Positions 20,424 through 33,761 of a DNA stretch of 59,551 nt are shown here, one piece after another (the stretch's first letter is position 1; the number at the start of each line of letters is the position of its first letter). The notes beneath the pieces are model-generated. The model searched no databases, was not told the origin of the DNA, and saw nothing but the letters and a program-made list of their open reading frames with translations. Both the position numbers and the translations under genes were made by a program. Source of the stretch: a virus; IMG/VR virus record IMGVR_UViG_3300025789_000004, positions 1 through 59,551 of that record; one strand, 5' to 3'.

Positions 20424-22730
20424 TTACTGGCCCTTAAACTGATTTTCGGACGGGTTTACCAATGGTGCAATCTCTTGTTCGTCGCCGGGATGGAGCAGGA
20501 TGTCCTTGGCAAGTCCCAGCATCGCGATCCGTTCGCGGCTTTCGCGGTCCATGTCGCGGTTTTCGTCCTCAACCTGCCGTTCCTGATGCCGTAGACCCAT
20601 CTCATTGCGCTTGGTTTCGGCGTTCATCAGATCAGCCCGAGCCGACGTCATCTGCGCCTGTGCCGCCTGCGGATCCAGACCTTCAGACTTGCGATCAAAG
20701 TACCCAGACTGGATCTTGGCCTGCGTTTCGGCAACCTTTGCCTGCGCATCCATCGTCTTGGCTTGCGCAATAGCCTTCTCATTGGCCATTTTGGCCTGCA
20801 TCTGCATCATTTCAGGCGGCGGAGCCTGCTGCGACTGCGGCGGTGCCATAAACTGATCAGGATTCGACCAGCCCAATGCCGCCAATGCCGCCCGATCAAT
20901 GGCAATCGGATCGTACATGGTCGGGTTCTGCGCCTGCAACTGCTTCAGTGCAGCGATTTTCATCATCCGCTGGCCATGCGATGCCGTATTGGGGTCGGCC
21001 TGCGGCACCAAATCGTAGTTACGCAGTGCAGTCAGGAACATCTGCTCGTCCCACTTGACCGTAGGCTTGAAGTTGCGTTGCCAGAAACTTTCTGGATGCT
21101 CCTCAAAGCACTCGCAAAGCAGCCGGAATTCCTCAGCCTGCGATGCATGCAGCCGCTTATGCACCGAGTCCAGCACCTTCGTGGCCTGCTCGATCATCGC
21201 CAACGTCGTTCCAACAGGTGCGTCAGCCTTGCCTTCGCCAACCTGCATCTCGGACGTGCCACCAATACGCATACCCGTCTGCGCAATGTCCGAAACCAGC
21301 GCCATCAGGGCCTGATTTGGTGGCTGATACGGCAAAGGCATAATGGCTTGACTAATAGGCATCCCGCCGGTCTTCACCAACGCCGCACCGCCCGGTGGCA
21401 CGCGGAACATATTGGTGTTCTGCCGAGCGCCAGTGTCAGCCATCAGGAAGCCGGGGAAGTTTGAATACATCCCGGCATCCAGCAGTTCCCGCCAAGCTGC
21501 GGTAATAGCGTTCGTAGTGTTGCCAAGAATGTGCAGCAGACCAATGTCGTAGAATCCCATACCGGGCACAAAAGTATACTTGACAAAGTTGGACTTTGCG
21601 ATGGGCAGATCATTGGTGCTTTCGTCAAAATTCCGCACAATGGACAGAATTTCTTTGGACGAAACATCGATCGTTACGCGATACGGAATCTCCAGCCCGG
21701 AGATCTTGCCCTTGTGCTTGTGCTCAAAGCCACGGATGTCCAGTTCGCAGTAGCACTCGTAGATTTCGCGGTCGCGGTCTTTTGCCGAACTGCTGCTATC
21801 CGAAATGCCTTGCTGTTCTTTCTCAGCCCGCTGATACGAATCCAGTTCCCGCTGCTTTGCCGACCCCAAGTCGATGTCTCGGTACACGCCCAAGATCTGC
21901 ATACGCTTGACCGTAGACGGGCGCATGGTGATTCGGTGCGTAATCCGGCTTGCATTGGACAGATCGGTGGCCGAGTCATTGACGATCAGGTCGTCAGCAT
22001 CAACCGTCTCCGAGACGGGCCGGTTCCGCAAGGGGCAATAGTAGACCTTCTTGAACGACGTCCCGCCGAACCCCAGCATCAGAAGCATACGGTCCGTGTC
22101 AGGATAGTATTCCGTCGCCGTCGATGTCAGATAGTGATTGAGGTCAGTTTCCAGCGCGTCTGCAATCTGGTCTTCCTGCAGGGTCGCGTTGTTGTCATCA
22201 TTGCGGATCTTCACCGGCCCATCGGTCGGCAGCAGTTCAGAGCGCGCATTGGCTTGAAACCGCAGTACAGCCTCCAGCAGCAATGGATGTCGTACCCGCG
22301 ACATGCCTTCCACTGGCGCTCCATCCGTCGCGCCCTGCAAACCGGGGATTTCAATCTTCAGCCCCAGCAGTTTCACACCCATTGCACGGGCTTCAATCCA
22401 ATCCTTGCGGGACATGATGTCTTCTTCGATCCCGCTGATCAAATCACCGGAGATCCGCGACAGTTCATCTTGGGGGATTTCATCCACCAGATTGTCGAAC
22501 CACCCGCCGTGATCGGTGCGTTCAGCCTTGTCCAGCGGATTGCCATCAAGCGAAATGGTGATCGAGCCATCGTCATGCTCAATCGAAATCGTATCGCCAT
22601 TTCCATCCAGCACGGGCTTGTCGCCAGACTCGTCAGCGAAGTCGATATGAATCGGCTCATCATGGGCCACAGACTGCACTGGACCGGGCTGACGAATGTT
22701 CATGGGGGCAAGGCCCGGTGCAGTAGCCAT
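20424..22730 (-). CDS. Portal protein
   Basis: The protein has 768 residues, a size usual for portals of short-tailed phages. It shows the portal pattern: VRHPLLLEAVLRFQANARSE, then ATEYYPDTDRMLLMLGFGGT, then the stem region with LLHILGNTTNAITAAWRELL. The C-terminal part is a long Gln/Ala-rich helix typical of barrel-forming ends (MQMQAKMANEKAIAQAKTMD). Portals form the dodecameric ring for DNA entry and hold the adaptor. It follows the terminase genes in transcription order. Confidence 0.88.
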   Translation of the reverse strand: MATAPGLAPMNIRQPGPVQSVAHDEPIHIDFADESGDKPVLDGNGDTISIEHDDGSITISLDGNPLDKAERTDHGGWFDNLVDEIPQDELSRISGDLISGIEEDIMSRKDWIEARAMGVKLLGLKIEIPGLQGATDGAPVEGMSRVRHPLLLEAVLRFQANARSELLPTDGPVKIRNDDNNATLQEDQIADALETDLNHYLTSTATEYYPDTDRMLLMLGFGGTSFKKVYYCPLRNRPVSETVDADDLIVNDSATDLSNASRITHRITMRPSTVKRMQILGVYRDIDLGSAKQRELDSYQRAEKEQQGISDSSSSAKDRDREIYECYCELDIRGFEHKHKGKISGLEIPYRVTIDVSSKEILSIVRNFDESTNDLPIAKSNFVKYTFVPGMGFYDIGLLHILGNTTNAITAAWRELLDAGMYSNFPGFLMADTGARQNTNMFRVPPGGAALVKTGGMPISQAIMPLPYQPPNQALMALVSDIAQTGMRIGGTSEMQVGEGKADAPVGTTLAMIEQATKVLDSVHKRLHASQAEEFRLLCECFEEHPESFWQRNFKPTVKWDEQMFLTALRNYDLVPQADPNTASHGQRMMKIAALKQLQAQNPTMYDPIAIDRAALAALGWSNPDQFMAPPQSQQAPPPEMMQMQAKMANEKAIAQAKTMDAQAKVAETQAKIQSGYFDRKSEGLDPQAAQAQMTSARADLMNAETKRNEMGLRHQERQVEDENRDMDRESRERIAMLGLAKDILLHPGDEQEIAPLVNPSENQFKGQ

Positions 22731-23254: not shown

Positions 23255-26200
23255 TTACACAGGGTACAAGGGCGTTTCTTGCTTGTTGGGGTACGTCTTC
23301 ATGCCTTCAATTTCTTGGATGCGTTCGGCGGATCTGGTCAGCAGGCCAATATCTCGCAGGTGCCTGATCGACATAGACACAGTATCCACCAAGTCGTCAT
23401 GGCGGCCCTTTGGAAACTGACCGACTTGCGTGATCACTTCTTCGGTCCACTTCTTGTCCGGGGCGTAGATCATCCCTTCCGAGAACAAGTGCTGCACCGA
23501 ATACAGCCGCGCCATTTTGTCAAGACTTTTCGGATCCGACAACTGCACAGCAAACCCTTCATTGCCGTACAGCCTCCGCATTTCCTGCGCCACAGAGATC
23601 CCGCTGGCCTTGTTTTCAATCAGCAACTTGTCAACCTTCAGCGCCTTGCAGGTCTTGGCAACCTTCTCCACCAGATCATGGAACTCCAGCCGCTCGGTCC
23701 ATGCGTGCATCATCATGACCTTCGGCGCTGACTCATTGTACGCCCGGTCAATATACTGCGGTCGCCCATCCGCCCCAATCGTCCTGTGCGCCACGGCACT
23801 CGCATCTGTAGTGAATATGCCCCAGATTGTCATCGCAGATGGGTCATTGCTGGTTTTGGACGTATATGCCGTATCCAACGATGCCACAATGTAGTCCATC
23901 GGCGGAAAGGTCGAGTCCGGCCACAACTTCCACCAATCGCGCTTGATGATCCCACCGCCTGCAGGCTCAGGACGCTGCTGCAACTGTCCAGCCGCCATGA
24001 ACGGCCCCAATGCGCGCTCCAGCCGGGTTACTTCCTCATCGCCAAAACGATCAGGCCACAGCAAGTCACCCTCTTTCTCGCGTGGATCTTCCCAGCCAAT
24101 ACTGTTCTTGAACGCCCGATCAGCTTCATACCGCATTGGCAAACACAAGTGCGTCCAGCCAGCTGACTCTTTTTCCAGAATGTGCCCAGTCAAGTCATTC
24201 TCAGCCAATCTCTGCTGAATGACAATCATCGCCCCGGTCTTCTGATCGTTAAGACGGGTGGACATCGTGCCGTCCCACCACTCAATAGTCGATTCAATAG
24301 TTGCTTCAGAAAACGCTTCAGAGGCTGAGTTGGGGTCATCTACAATTATGCAGTTATGGGCAAGTACGCCATTAGCAAAGAAGTTGTGGCATTCTTCAAC
24401 TTGAATGTCATAGACTTTGTTCTTTGGACCGCTATATCGCTCAATTGAGCAGATGACATCATTTTGCCATGATGATGCAGGCGATGACACGATTCGCACA
24501 GCATTATCAAATTTTCCGGCACGTTGTTCCTGCTGTTCTCGTCTATGTGATGCGCGTGCAAAATTGATTTCTTTCGATTTCCGCGCTGCACCTTCTCGTC
24601 CACCAAACCACACGCCTGACAAGCGAACTCGTCCCGCTCCAAAACAATCACTCGCATATCCCGGAACTGGTTGGAATACCGGCCTAGTTTGGAAAAATTG
24701 GAATTGTGCGCACCCTTCATGCGATCCGAATGATCCGCATCCGCACAAGACGGACTGCAATAGATTGTCCAACCAGCAAATTGCGCTTTGCAACGCGGGC
24801 ATTCTTTTTTCTTGCGCTTGTCCCAACGTAATTTTTGATGGCACTCGTCCGAGCACACTTCGGAGTGCCTGTGCTTGCGCAGTTTTCCGCAAATTACACA
24901 CGCTTTTGTGTTTTTTGTGGAATGGTGTTGTGAGCAACATTTTTTTGAGCAGTATGCGTCCCGGCTTCCTTGTTTTAAGGCTTTGCGTGCCTCGTAAAGA
25001 TGCTTTTGCGTTTCTACCCCGCAGTTGTCGCATAGAAGGTTGACGATCATTTTCCGACCGTCTTTGAACAATAATCCCGTCTCCAATCCCCAATTCACAA
25101 GCTGGGACATATCCTGTCCCCTGCACGAAAATTGGATGGTCCCCAGTACACTCGACGGAAATTCCTGAAACCGTGCGTATTTCATAAAGGGTATCCGATT
25201 CAAGAAGGCGGGTTGCCAACACCCGTTTTTCTACCACCTTACCCCGTGAATGGTCAAACGATAATACTGTATCCCCTACAGAAACCTTGGAAATTGGTAC
25301 GTCTCCAAACGGCGTGGACACGTTAATCCATCCGGGAAAACATGATCCGCCTTCACCAGTCACTGCCGCACCAACTGAAGTAATCAGTCGTTCGCCACCT
25401 TGGTCATTACTAAAGCGTGACTTAGTATTCTGATCCGAATTGATCTTGAATCTTTCTCCCCACAACTTCTGGTACCATGGAGACTCAATCAATCGACGGC
25501 ATTTCACAGAGTCGCGCAACACCAACTGATTGGCATACGATGCGCAAAGAAACTGCACGCCCGGACCAGACGTCGGTGAGCGATGCTCTTGTGCCCATGT
25601 CCATGCGGGAAACGCCACAGATGTAATGGTTGAATTGTGCGTAGGGATGAGATTGCGGCCAATCAAATAAAGCCCATCTGGCGAATCTACTTGGATGCAA
25701 TGGCCAAAAAGCCCTTGCGGTTCAAGCGTCACGGACTTGAGGCCAATTGCTCGCTTAGGGGCAAATCGTTTAATTTGCTTGCGTGGAAGGGCAGTAGGAA
25801 TAGCCATTGTAGGCTGGAATGCTACTGTCCAGCATTCCTTTTTCCCTTGAATGCCTGACGTGCTCATCCGGGGCTGTGTGCTAGATACAACGGCGCGCCA
25901 CCCAAAGCTACGCACAAGCTCCGCAACGCCATCAATAATTTTCTTATTCGCATTGGAAAAATGGCACCTGTTATTCTTATCGACGCAGCCATCAGTGTCA
26001 ATCAAGCCAGCCAAAAGTTCAAGGCGTTGGCTTATGGTCCCCAAAAGATAGAGGTTTGGAATATGCTTGTCATTAAGCACGCCTGCCTCGCGCAAGCCGT
26101 TTTTGAGATTACTAGAAGCAAAGGACGTTGTGATTGCTCCAGTCCTTTTGTGTTCCCACGAGACACTGATGGAATACCCCAACGACACAATTTTGCTGAT

Positions 26201-26902
26201 GCACTCAGTATCTCGCGGGCTGTGGGTAATGCACGCCTTCCCCGACGATCCATCCCCTAGCCACGCGCCCAAGACGTAAGGATGGACAGGCAATTCAGCG
26301 CCCTTGTCAGGCATCTGCAAAGGCTCAACTAGCGGAAGTTGGTGCAACGCCCTACCCCCACTAGATGCAGCTTTGGGTTTCCCCTTTGTTTGCCCCCACC
26401 GGCCACGGCGGGGCTCCAAAAACTGCCGAGTCTCTACTGTTTCCCACAACCGGCTCATGCGATTGAACAGTGTCCATTCGTGATTTTCGTGGCAGTAGAA
26501 CACACTGCCATCAAAAAACTCAACGCGGACATTGGAAGGTGTCTTATCTGATACGGCAAGCACTTTGACTGGCTTACCAGATGGGTGAAACACAAAATCA
26601 CCTCGGGCCAAATCCCCGTGCGTTTTCCATCCTTCTGTAGTAAAAACTTCAGTGTTATCAGCTACTTGCTTGCCCATTCTGGGAGGAATGTTGATGATCA
26701 GCCGCCGTGTCTCTCCATCCACCACTGCCTGCAGATGTTCAGCCACTGCCTCAATTGGCCAACCATCTTTCCACGGGCTGGCGTCAATGTATTTCCAAGC
26801 ATTCACCAAGAAATAGTATAGGCTTTCTTCGCAGTCAGCACGATCAAGCGCTTCCAACTGCTTAATAGGATTAAGTAGTGATGGATCAAATTCTGTGTCC
26901 AT
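23255..26902 (-). CDS. terL: Terminase large subunit precursor with two inteins
   Basis: The open frame encodes 1215 residues, but only about 540 are terminase. Extein 1 (1-78) ends in IPPRMGK of Walker A. Intein 1 is residues 79-423; extein 2 (424-520) resumes with Ser and carries the ATPase core up to GEGGS. Intein 2 is 521-850; extein 3 (851-1215) starts CIIVDDP, the Walker B region, then the coupling motif IQQRLAENDL. The RNase H-type nuclease domain has ASLDTAY, LLIENKASG and RHDDLVDT. The spliced enzyme would cut concatemers and pump DNA through the portal. It starts at the ATG overlapping the terS stop (TAATG). Both inteins interrupt catalytic motifs, so activity should require splicing. 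Confidence 0.93.
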   Translation of the reverse strand: MDTEFDPSLLNPIKQLEALDRADCEESLYYFLVNAWKYIDASPWKDGWPIEAVAEHLQAVVDGETRRLIINIPPRMGKQVADNTEVFTTEGWKTHGDLARGDFVFHPSGKPVKVLAVSDKTPSNVRVEFFDGSVFYCHENHEWTLFNRMSRLWETVETRQFLEPRRGRWGQTKGKPKAASSGGRALHQLPLVEPLQMPDKGAELPVHPYVLGAWLGDGSSGKACITHSPRDTECISKIVSLGYSISVSWEHKRTGAITTSFASSNLKNGLREAGVLNDKHIPNLYLLGTISQRLELLAGLIDTDGCVDKNNRCHFSNANKKIIDGVAELVRSFGWRAVVSSTQPRMSTSGIQGKKECWTVAFQPTMAIPTALPRKQIKRFAPKRAIGLKSVTLEPQGLFGHCIQVDSPDGLYLIGRNLIPTHNSTITSVAFPAWTWAQEHRSPTSGPGVQFLCASYANQLVLRDSVKCRRLIESPWYQKLWGERFKINSDQNTKSRFSNDQGGERLITSVGAAVTGEGGSCFPGWINVSTPFGDVPISKVSVGDTVLSFDHSRGKVVEKRVLATRLLESDTLYEIRTVSGISVECTGDHPIFVQGTGYVPACELGIGDGIIVQRRSENDRQPSMRQLRGRNAKASLRGTQSLKTRKPGRILLKKMLLTTPFHKKHKSVCNLRKTAQAQALRSVLGRVPSKITLGQAQEKRMPALQSAICWLDNLLQSVLCGCGSFGSHEGCAQFQFFQTRPVFQPVPGYASDCFGAGRVRLSGVWFGGREGAARKSKEINFARASHRREQQEQRAGKFDNAVRIVSSPASSWQNDVICSIERYSGPKNKVYDIQVEECHNFFANGVLAHNCIIVDDPNSASEAFSEATIESTIEWWDGTMSTRLNDQKTGAMIVIQQRLAENDLTGHILEKESAGWTHLCLPMRYEADRAFKNSIGWEDPREKEGDLLWPDRFGDEEVTRLERALGPFMAAGQLQQRPEPAGGGIIKRDWWKLWPDSTFPPMDYIVASLDTAYTSKTSNDPSAMTIWGIFTTDASAVAHRTIGADGRPQYIDRAYNESAPKVMMMHAWTERLEFHDLVEKVAKTCKALKVDKLLIENKASGISVAQEMRRLYGNEGFAVQLSDPKSLDKMARLYSVQHLFSEGMIYAPDKKWTEEVITQVGQFPKGRHDDLVDTVSMSIRHLRDIGLLTRSAERIQEIEGMKTYPNKQETPLYPV
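24346..25050 (-). CDS. HNH endonuclease encoded out of frame inside intein 2
   Basis: The protein has 234 residues from the ATG at 25050 (M-I-V-N-L-L-C-D-N-C). Several Cys pairs follow (YCSKKCC, CVICGK, CPRCKAQF, YCSPSC), then an HNH core with CQACGLVDE, HAHHIDENSRNN and LCESCHRLHHHG. The last ~40 residues are read from DNA that also encodes the intein C-terminal block, and the frame stops seven bases past the intein. The frame differs from the terminase frame, which is open throughout. The ribosome site before the ATG is weak (CGGAAA). It may be translated independently or by frameshifting. The open frame extends upstream to 25203. Confidence 0.85.
   Translation of the reverse strand: MIVNLLCDNCGVETQKHLYEARKALKQGSRDAYCSKKCCSQHHSTKNTKACVICGKLRKHRHSEVCSDECHQKLRWDKRKKKECPRCKAQFAGWTIYCSPSCADADHSDRMKGAHNSNFSKLGRYSNQFRDMRVIVLERDEFACQACGLVDEKVQRGNRKKSILHAHHIDENSRNNVPENLIMLCESCHRLHHHGKMMSSAQLSDIAVQRTKSMTFKLKNATTSLLMAYLPITA
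24353..25342 (-). other. Intein 2 of TerL, inserted before Walker B
   Basis: Residues 521-850 of the precursor. It begins CFPGWINVSTPFGDVPI (block A), includes ECTGDHPIFVQGTGYV (block B, with the TxxH-type pair), and ends VYDIQVEECHNFFANGVLAH plus the terminal Asn before Cys (blocks F and G). The real splicing domain is about 97 + 40 residues, a normal mini-intein size. The 194 residues between (24470-25051) read as unrelated low-meaning sequence, because another frame there encodes an HNH endonuclease. Confidence 0.9.
25634..26668 (-). other. Intein 1 of TerL with LAGLIDADG endonuclease, inserted in Walker A
   Basis: Residues 79-423 of the precursor, splitting the P-loop between Lys and Ser. 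The N-terminal residue is Gln (QVADNTEVFTTEGW), a less common but known class of intein start. The homing endonuclease motifs are YVLGAWLGDG (near residue 210) and LLAGLIDTDG (near 296). The C-terminus LIPTHN followed by Ser is a standard block G. The single-frame layout with a dodecapeptide endonuclease is classical. Confidence 0.92.
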
Positions 26903-31487: not shown

Positions 31488-33761
31488 TTACGCCTTGCGG
31501 ATGTGGGTGTACTGCTTGCCATTGCGGGGAATGGTGCGCTCAGTGCGTTCAATGCGGCCTGATTGGACCAGCGCGTCCAAGGCGGCGGCGATATCGTCCT
31601 TCTTGTACTTGCGCAGTTTGTTGGAAAGCACGCCAACGCTGATGCCATCATCGCTGCACAGGTTTTCGATCTTGGCTTGCAGCGCGCTCATGGGGGCGTC
31701 TTTCTGGTGATCGTTGGAGATGACCAGCCGCGCCTTTTCTTCGATGTCCCTGCGCACCAATGCAAACGCCCAGCGGACATGCTCAGCGGTGCGGATACCA
31801 CCGCTTAGGGCCAACACGAGGCTTGCCTTGCTCAAGGCTTCATATGCCCGCAGATAAAGCGCTTCGAGGCCGTGGCGCTCCTTCTGAAGATCCGCTTGTT
31901 CGTCAAACCAGTCTGCGGCCTTGGCAAGCATCTCCAATGCCTTTGGCTCTGTGGGGATCTTGCTCTTTTCGCCGTAGTATTCCACGCGGGTTGCCTGTGT
32001 GTCATAGGACCCGCCATAATACATGGCCTGCAAAGCGCTCTCGATCTCACGAGGCAGCGGGGGTGCCGCAAAGTTGCGCTTGCTCTTGGGGGCAGTGTCG
32101 CGTTCGTTGAACAACAGACTGCGGCCAATGAACCCATTGGTGGCGCTGGCATGATCCACCAGACCATCGAACGTCTCGGGCGTGGTGAAACCCAGCAGGC
32201 TAAGGAATGGACGCTCAAGACCCTTATCGAGATTGTTCAACTGCCCTTGCAGAGTGGTCCGGCGATGCTTCAGGCTATCGTTGTCGCCATCTTCATCTGC
32301 CTTGCGGTTAAGCTGGGCCATATCTTGTATGAGCGCTTTCTTAAGTTCCTCCTTGGCATCGCCTGTGACAAGCAACCAGCCATTCCCCTTGGAGTAAACC
32401 GACATCAAAGTAGCAATCACACCCTCCAGATAGATTGCTCCACCCTTCTGGGATGCTGATTTCAGCTTTTGCAGAAAGATCCCCACTTCGTCGATCACAT
32501 AGAACGCCGCTTGGTGCCGGGTCAGGTTGCGGAATATTTCGGAATCCGACTTGATGGCACCATGGGTTGCGCCAGAGATCCCGGCAGCGCGATGCAATGT
32601 GCCGACCGCTTGCTGAACGGCTTCCTTGCCGGTACCGGATCCAGCGATGCAAAAGCAAAACAGGTTTGCCGTCACACCGTCTTTGTCATCGGTGTATCGC
32701 AAACCAGCAATATTGCCGATTGCCGTAAGGGCAGCAGCGGTTGCAAGTGTGGCACGGGGACGGCGGCATTGGCTTTCGATCCAGCGGGCTACATCACCGA
32801 CAAAACCCGGTGGGGATTTGAGGTCGCATCCGGCGATGTCAAAAGGCAGGCCGTCAACTGGCGATTCAATCTCGGCAACAACCTCCACGCCCTCAGGAAC
32901 AAAGCTAACCGGCATCACCCAGCCGTGTTGCTCGGCATGATAGATCAGTGTGCCAATGGTGACAGGGTTTGCGGCGCGACCGAAGCTATGCCAGCGGTTC
33001 GCCATAAGGGTTGCATCATGCTTGCCAGATTGGGCGCTCCAATGGTCCCACAGATCGTAGCCGGTGCCGCCTGTCGCTTGATGGATTGCCATGCCGACCT
33101 TGACCCAATCATCATAGGGCAGATCGTCATTCGGGATATGCTGAAGCATCGTGGCAATTTCGGCCTGCGATACGTCCAGACTGATGCCGTTGTATTCCGT
33201 GCGGTGCCGTTCCGGCTTGCGCAGGATCGCCAGCAATGCATCTGGCGCAGGGGCGATGTCATTGGGCGCACCGTCCGCTGTCGAATAGCGGTTGCCAGAC
33301 AAATGCATGGAACCGGGGCCGACAACAAAACGGCTGCCCGATTGGAAATCGATGCCACGATATTCCGGGAGATGCGACAGCAAGGCCACATCATTTGGTG
33401 CGGTGAAATAGTAGTGGCGAGATCCCTTGCCGGAACCTGTATCGACGACCAGACCAGCTCCCGCAATCTCCGGGATGTCGATCAGCAGCTTTGACAGGCT
33501 TTCTACGCCACCATTGCGGGCATCGACATCGACAACCAGCAGGCCACGGCACAAGACGCCGTAACCAGTGTCAAAGAATTCCGCATCCTCCATGGTGTCC
33601 AACTGCTCGACATCCCAATGGGGCGTGTTCTGCCAGTTCGAGATGCGGGGGTGCTTGCCTTTCGCTTCGCAATCAGGCTTGCCGCATTCACAAGCATTCG
33701 GATTAAACCGCCACAACGGAAAAATCCGAAAGCCAGCATCATAGAAATCACGGTAAAGCAT
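31488..33761 (-). CDS. Primase-polymerase / helicase fusion (Prim-Pol, PriCT, DUF3987-type)
   Basis: The protein has 757 residues. The N-terminal Prim-Pol domain has FRIFPLW, a Cys cluster (CECGKPDC), the metal-binding VVDVDARNGG (Asp 78 and 80) and SRHYYF. A PriCT-2 type domain follows (near 200-280: MLQHIPNDDLPYDDWVKVGM). The C-terminal P-loop ATPase has GSGTGKE at 374-380 and FYVIDEVGIF as Walker B. Such proteins prime and unwind at the phage origin; the iteron array lies directly after its stop. With no phage DNA polymerase seen, elongation probably uses the host polymerase. Confidence 0.85.
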   Translation of the reverse strand: MLYRDFYDAGFRIFPLWRFNPNACECGKPDCEAKGKHPRISNWQNTPHWDVEQLDTMEDAEFFDTGYGVLCRGLLVVDVDARNGGVESLSKLLIDIPEIAGAGLVVDTGSGKGSRHYYFTAPNDVALLSHLPEYRGIDFQSGSRFVVGPGSMHLSGNRYSTADGAPNDIAPAPDALLAILRKPERHRTEYNGISLDVSQAEIATMLQHIPNDDLPYDDWVKVGMAIHQATGGTGYDLWDHWSAQSGKHDATLMANRWHSFGRAANPVTIGTLIYHAEQHGWVMPVSFVPEGVEVVAEIESPVDGLPFDIAGCDLKSPPGFVGDVARWIESQCRRPRATLATAAALTAIGNIAGLRYTDDKDGVTANLFCFCIAGSGTGKEAVQQAVGTLHRAAGISGATHGAIKSDSEIFRNLTRHQAAFYVIDEVGIFLQKLKSASQKGGAIYLEGVIATLMSVYSKGNGWLLVTGDAKEELKKALIQDMAQLNRKADEDGDNDSLKHRRTTLQGQLNNLDKGLERPFLSLLGFTTPETFDGLVDHASATNGFIGRSLLFNERDTAPKSKRNFAAPPLPREIESALQAMYYGGSYDTQATRVEYYGEKSKIPTEPKALEMLAKAADWFDEQADLQKERHGLEALYLRAYEALSKASLVLALSGGIRTAEHVRWAFALVRRDIEEKARLVISNDHQKDAPMSALQAKIENLCSDDGISVGVLSNKLRKYKKDDIAAALDALVQSGRIERTERTIPRNGKQYTHIRKA

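Follow-up and report, generated by a model that had tools for sequence, protein, structure and literature searches.

The terminase large subunit gene (terL) of the viral record IMGVR_UViG_3300025789_000004 from IMG/VR, whose 59,551 nucleotides are called the window below, is predicted to contain two inteins, and a second gene, for a predicted HNH endonuclease, overlaps intein 2 in the +1 frame relative to terL. We consider it likely, at a probability of roughly 0.8, that intein 2 is mobile and that its homing endonuclease comes from a separate gene, which overlaps it and probably has an internal start. The preliminary description of this DNA had recognised the two inteins and overlooked the overlapping gene, which is the informative feature of the locus.

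terL is a single open frame of 1215 codons unbroken by stops, and its product matches terminase large subunits (TerLs; phrog_38, E 2e-72; TIGR01630, E 2e-13). We compared it with the 80 closest of 227 TerLs found in IMG/VR, in which the intein-free members are 58–85% identical over the C-extein. The P-loop site is empty in 71 of these TerLs, carries an insert in four and could not be called in five, and the Walker-B site is empty in 71, carries an insert in six and could not be called in three; in a relative that is 85% identical (L169), the empty Walker-B site reads AVTGEGGS-IIVVDD. Because close intein-free TerLs are contiguous at both sites, and splicing blocks are present in both inserts, this alignment, which the preliminary description had called for, confirms at the level of sequence that the inserts are inteins of known kinds and not ordinary family insertions. 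The boundaries proposed there hold as well, with intein 1 between GK and S of the P-loop and intein 2 before CIIVDD, as do the differing start residues (Gln and Cys) and the expected product of about 540 residues, the exteins adding up to 540. A group I intron in terL was rejected, as an Rfam search of positions 23255–26902 gave nothing up to E 1.

In the host frame, intein 2 has the sequence hallmarks of a class 1 intein. Blocks A, B, F and G are all present (C1, TGDH, VYDIQVEECHNFF, and LAHN followed by C) between AVTGEGGS upstream and CIIVDD downstream, and the family matches are PF14890 (E 2.9e-16) and intein_Cterm (TIGR01443, E 6.8e-10). C1, T66, H69 and N330 are invariant across the 24–25 aligned inteins, and the residue after the intein is Cys; this +1 extein residue is Ile at the empty site, and the replacement of Ile by Cys fits the splicing requirement. 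A Hint fold is confidently predicted for both splicing parts, which are modelled at a predicted local distance difference test score (pLDDT) of about 96 (residues 1–93 and about 290–330), while residues 98–286 mostly stay below 58; Foldseek matched the model to solved inteins, 61 of them at E ≤ 0.001. A family search of the host frame of intein 2 found no endonuclease family.

Read in the +1 frame, the same DNA encodes a predicted HNH endonuclease (PF01844, E 6.7e-6, above the cut-off), whose stop codon ends at 24346, 7 nucleotides (nt) into the C-extein. The active-site residues H187, H188, N200, H209 and H213 are invariant in 23 aligned sequences, leaving the HH-N-H motif intact, and the structure model reaches a mean pLDDT of 86.5. 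The claim that two endonuclease classes had entered the gene thus survives in part: LAGLIDADG (in intein 1) and HNH families are both represented, but the HNH lies outside the host frame and the polypeptide of intein 2 carries no endonuclease.

The overlapped design recurs in other viruses. A search with the HNH as query, covering the best 80 of 160 IMG/VR loci, also found the TerLs of Gordonia phage Clown and Synechococcus phage S-EIVl and one bacterial genome. Among the resulting 84 HNH loci, which include duplicates, the HNH lies in the +1 frame of a long host open reading frame (ORF) in 73, in the +2 frame in none and, as would be the case in a bifunctional intein, in the host frame in none; 11 loci have no such host ORF, and an open host frame was itself required for the nested class. 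The 73 nested loci form 44 clusters at 90% host identity. A TerL family match was obtained for all 44 hosts and a PF14890 match for 40, and no other host gene for a nested HNH was found among the 44 clusters. None of the 11 non-nested HNH loci lies inside a TerL, and three have a TerL elsewhere on the contig. The insertion precedes the Walker B DD by four residues in 31 cases, by three in eight (nine with the truncated L066), by six in three and by one in a single case. In L062, L080, L065 and L024, the same intein with a +1 HNH is found one or six residues before DD instead of four, a whole-codon shift of the site. Compensating frameshifts or an assembly error were ruled out by the identical offset in 44 clusters; L140 alone resembles a single indel, which shifts the frames of TerL and of the nested HNH alike.

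Support that does not depend on the required open host frame comes from these 11 remaining loci and from a site-centred search, which was keyed on the C-terminal splice block plus extein and was blind to the endonuclease. Its best 80 of 262 loci comprise 56 full-length inteins, 17 mini-inteins and seven others, namely four fractured TerLs, L140, and L120 and L145, which are cut off at the contig start. Every one of the 56 full-length inteins contains a +1 HNH, and the 55 that were compared fall into 46 clusters. The mini-inteins are 103–193 amino acids long, and eight of the 17 keep a remnant of the +1 HNH (L113 lies near a contig end). As an architecture, the overlapping +1 HNH gene in a cis-splicing intein is well supported as widely conserved, including in distantly related viruses; as to its function, we infer homing. 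In a separate search of 396 genomes of one phylum, 15 had a match, the starting genome included; of the 15 loci examined (L249–L263), two in bacterial genomes, L250 and L260, have another frame of the same strand open across the whole HNH match, and these could be further overlaps in other hosts.

The two frames bear different marks of selection. Over the 44 clusters, no host-frame stop was observed where 381.2 were expected from synonymous codon permutations that hold the HNH protein and its codon usage fixed, a count that is conditional on the nested class, which presupposes an open host frame; third-frame stops are not depleted (467 observed, 405.9 expected). For the window alone, 12.2 host-frame stops were expected, and none of 50,000 permutations was stop-free. 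Among HNH codons with a pyrimidine in third position, 852 of 852 that stand before AA, AG or GA have C there, as against 1605 C and 1643 T elsewhere. Arithmetically, this bias is linked to the lack of stops; it shows how that lack is reached and is not a separate line of evidence. In this offset, a host stop can form only where an HNH codon has T as its third base, and it can be removed silently because the change from T to C is always synonymous there. The +1 offset would be favoured because any host stop is removable in this way (NNT to NNC); in the other offset, TGA would be unavoidable wherever Met precedes a codon with A as its first base, and the 44 HNH genes contain 72 such pairs.

The 30 of 44 clusters with at least 600 nt of HNH were compared in 435 pairs. 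Identity averages 0.38 for the HNH frame, as against 0.21 for the host linker and 0.22 for the third frame. In every one of the 435 pairs the HNH frame is more alike than the host linker, and in 431 of them changes are commonest at HNH third positions. This pattern indicates that selection preserves the HNH sequence in the linker and that the host frame is merely kept open. It also makes it highly improbable that the HNH ORF is no more than a relic in decay, with the splicing intein as the sole element of importance: whereas mini-inteins with HNH remnants and the failure to detect recent transfer (see below) would suit a relic, the conservation of the frame, the dominance of third-position changes and the intact active site would not.

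How the HNH would be translated is suggested by its candidate starts. Start codons in the HNH frame pair better with a Shine–Dalgarno sequence than those in the third frame (P = 0.002) or the host frame (P = 0.0003), in a comparison that excludes the four of 44 clusters lacking a located block B (L036, L051, L069 and L066) and that, being best-per-locus, favours the frame with more start codons (287 versus 135). Measured from the His codon of block B, start positions in the HNH frame recur near −56 and at +28 to +73 nt. The tyrosine of a VYD motif, which yields Met in the +1 frame when encoded by TAT, is encoded by TAT in 39 of the 43 full-length inteins (out of 56) that were taken for this count, compared with 282 of 539 extein tyrosines, an excess that is suggestive, although the loci are related. 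If the HNH were instead reached by +1 ribosomal frameshifting within the intein, an N-intein–HNH fusion and no free enzyme would result. The +1 ORF is indeed open for some way upstream of the candidate starts, and L006, L062 and L024 have no good internal start; yet the host frame offers no stop for a classical shift of the release-factor type, for which reason internal initiation is favoured, and together with the better Shine–Dalgarno pairing this makes frameshifting unlikely.

A homing cycle is compatible with the sporadic presence of intein 2 among the 80 closest TerLs. Both inserts were observed only in L004, which belongs to the window's own population; the P-loop insert alone is found in L207, L214 and L223 and the Walker-B insert alone in L195, L202, L208 and L209, while L168, from the same population as the window, has the Walker-B insert and a P-loop site that could not be called. 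The single-insert TerLs of either kind support the earlier proposal that the two inteins colonised the gene independently. In L217, L220, L221 and L222, the empty site carries Cys at the +1 position (GGA-CILVDD), possibly the scar of a lost intein. Judged from sequence data, sporadic presence, mini-inteins and the intact HH-N-H motif fit such a cycle.

The same distribution bears on two functional explanations. HNH proteins encoded beside terminases are said to aid packaging in excerpts of two reports (PMC10448857, PMC11855218), and all 44 clusters lie in terL, so the HNH might be a helper nuclease of the terminase that serves packaging and not homing; this is very unlikely in view of the many relatives with an empty Walker-B site, the loss of the HNH from mini-inteins and its position within an intein. 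The preliminary description had further proposed that the two splicing reactions control the timing of packaging. With both inteins breaking up ATPase motifs, the precursor is expected to be inactive, and the same idea of a timing control has been put forward for the two inteins of the cyanophage Mic1 TerL in the excerpted text (PMC7156551). Against this stand close relatives without either intein and the absence of any sequence sign of conditional splicing; our analysis brought no evidence in support of a timing control, which we regard as hardly plausible.

Besides the conditional stop count and the uneven number of start codons, several results weigh against a homing endonuclease expressed from its own gene. 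The HNH model has only weak matches in Foldseek (best E 7e-3), and Pfam HNH models match 18 of 22 members. No single HNH start codon is conserved across clusters, and L006, L062, L024 and L055 lack any start with a 4-nt Shine–Dalgarno match, the broken HNH of L079 being set aside in this count. HNH and extein identities co-vary (r = 0.73 over 1388 pairs), and recent horizontal transfer was sought and not detected, the top rows of the transfer list being pairs whose exteins gave no BLAST match.

For a mobile intein with an overlapping endonuclease gene, we propose the following sequence of events. Translation of frame 0 would yield the TerL precursor, in which the N- and C-parts of intein 2 would fold around an unstructured linker of ~190 residues and splice out. 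Translation of the +1 frame, most likely initiated inside the intein, would supply the HNH as a protein of its own. This enzyme would cleave terL copies that lack the intein at the site near Walker B, where repair would copy the intein in. Silent changes would keep the host frame free of stops, and deletion of the endonuclease would leave a mini-intein.

Intein 1, at the P-loop, is an ordinary and precedented part of the locus. Class 3 inteins are marked by a triad of W in block B, C in block F and T in block G. In intein 1, flanked by PPRMGK and STITS, block B contains HEW and block F contains HCIQV, PTHN is followed by S, and the first residue is Q, so that position 1 offers no nucleophile; it resembles a class 3 intein that carries a LAGLIDADG domain in frame, as judged from these motifs and from its Hom_end and LAGLIDADG_3 matches. 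Among solved structures, class 3 DnaB inteins are the nearest by sequence to its splicing parts (6bs8, E 5.5e-12), and PI-SceI is the nearest to its endonuclease part. The same pattern, slightly varied, is found in P-loop inteins of Gordonia phage Verity, Bacteroides phage B124-14 and L207. The features of the locus, together with three genes elsewhere in the window, are listed in Table 1.

Table 1. Positions of terL, its inteins, the overlapping HNH gene and other genes in the window.
Feature	Positions	Strand	Description
terL ORF	23255–26902	−	1215-residue precursor with two inteins
terL exteins	26902–26669, 25633–25343, 24352–23258	−	540 residues in total
Intein 1	25634–26668	−	345 residues, Gln start, between Lys and Ser of the P-loop, in-frame LAGLIDADG
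Intein 2	24353–25342	−	330 residues, Cys start, ends HN followed by C; Hint parts at both ends
HNH endonuclease ORF (predicted)	24346–25110	−	+1 frame relative to terL; 254 residues from ATG at 25110
Two-frame test stretch	24418–25104	−	229 HNH codons, host frame stop-free
Shine–Dalgarno-like AGGGG (putative)	25118–25122	−	upstream of candidate start ATG 25110
Shine–Dalgarno-like GGAG and second candidate start (putative)	25069–25084	−	GGAG at 25084–25081, TTG at 25071
Second, separate HNH protein	915–1397	−	160 residues, PF01844
SU10-type portal protein	20424–22730	−	
Prim-Pol/PriCT-2 primase	31488–33761	−	DUF3987 match

Intein 2 shares with bifunctional inteins the Hint blocks, the position of the endonuclease between blocks B and F and the existence of mini-intein derivatives, whereas the endonuclease is in frame there and out of the intein's frame here. 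Fractured genes, reportedly described by Dassa in 2009, contain split inteins with an endonuclease gene between the halves. They likewise have the endonuclease as a gene of its own within an intein, and four IMG/VR TerLs, in which a GIY-YIG-like ORF occupies a neighbouring position, are of this kind; unlike a host gene broken into two ORFs, terL of the window is one unbroken ORF, and splicing would be in cis. In these four fractured TerLs (L106, L107, L109 and L110), the insertion lies 2–3 residues from the window's site, the N-intein ORF stops within the start of the GIY-YIG-like ORF (a label assigned by eye), and the C-intein half is encoded by a separate ORF in which ATG codons precede the C-block.

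The closest precedent is the ShiLan domain, an HNH encoded out of frame within a phage methylase gene, where the authors, in the excerpts considered, find no splicing elements (PMC11855218); in excerpted text, a methylase of the same kind is reported for phage Applejack (PMC12613952). As in the window, the HNH, there with zinc fingers, is encoded in another frame of an uninterrupted host gene. The two HNH proteins are related (29% identical over 42%), and a relative of the ShiLan HNH in Mycobacterium phage Tarkin also lies in the +1 frame of a methylase. According to the same excerpts, the ShiLan insertion stays in the protein, whereas the HNH of the window lies in a terL intein with a PF14890 match and all splicing blocks.

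TerL inteins of mycobacteriophages occur at the P-loop (TerL1-a) and at Walker B (TerL1-e) and include class 3 inteins, according to excerpts of PMC5050341. These and the Mic1 inteins interrupt the same ATPase regions as in the window, Mic1 also with two in one TerL, but no out-of-frame endonuclease is described in the excerpts. The TerLs of Clown (gp5) and S-EIVl contain the same intein with a +1 HNH, and their records annotate only a terminase over this stretch, leaving the HNH unannotated. The parts considered of the papers found contain no description of an intein with an out-of-frame endonuclease; a preprint on non-canonical actinobacteriophage inteins, considered by its title, may contain one for actinophages.

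Inteins are described as containing the homing endonuclease as an in-frame domain or as having none, and the excerpted text of a review distinguishes three configurations, full-length, mini and split (PMC7765530). We think it rather probable that a contiguous cis-splicing intein with the homing endonuclease gene in the +1 frame of its linker constitutes a fourth, widespread and old configuration. If so, mini-inteins, and possibly fractured genes too, could have arisen from endonuclease insertion via an overlapping stage, and the enzyme would be uncoupled from the host protein in amount and timing. A conserved class of this kind also calls for a different annotation of such elements, whose host-frame product resembles a mini-intein with a junk linker. 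Over a shared stretch of roughly 230 codons, it provides a natural case in which one frame is conserved while the other is just kept open. It further allows hypotheses on how mini- and split inteins arose to be tested within one gene, for which Clown and S-EIVl are available as isolates.

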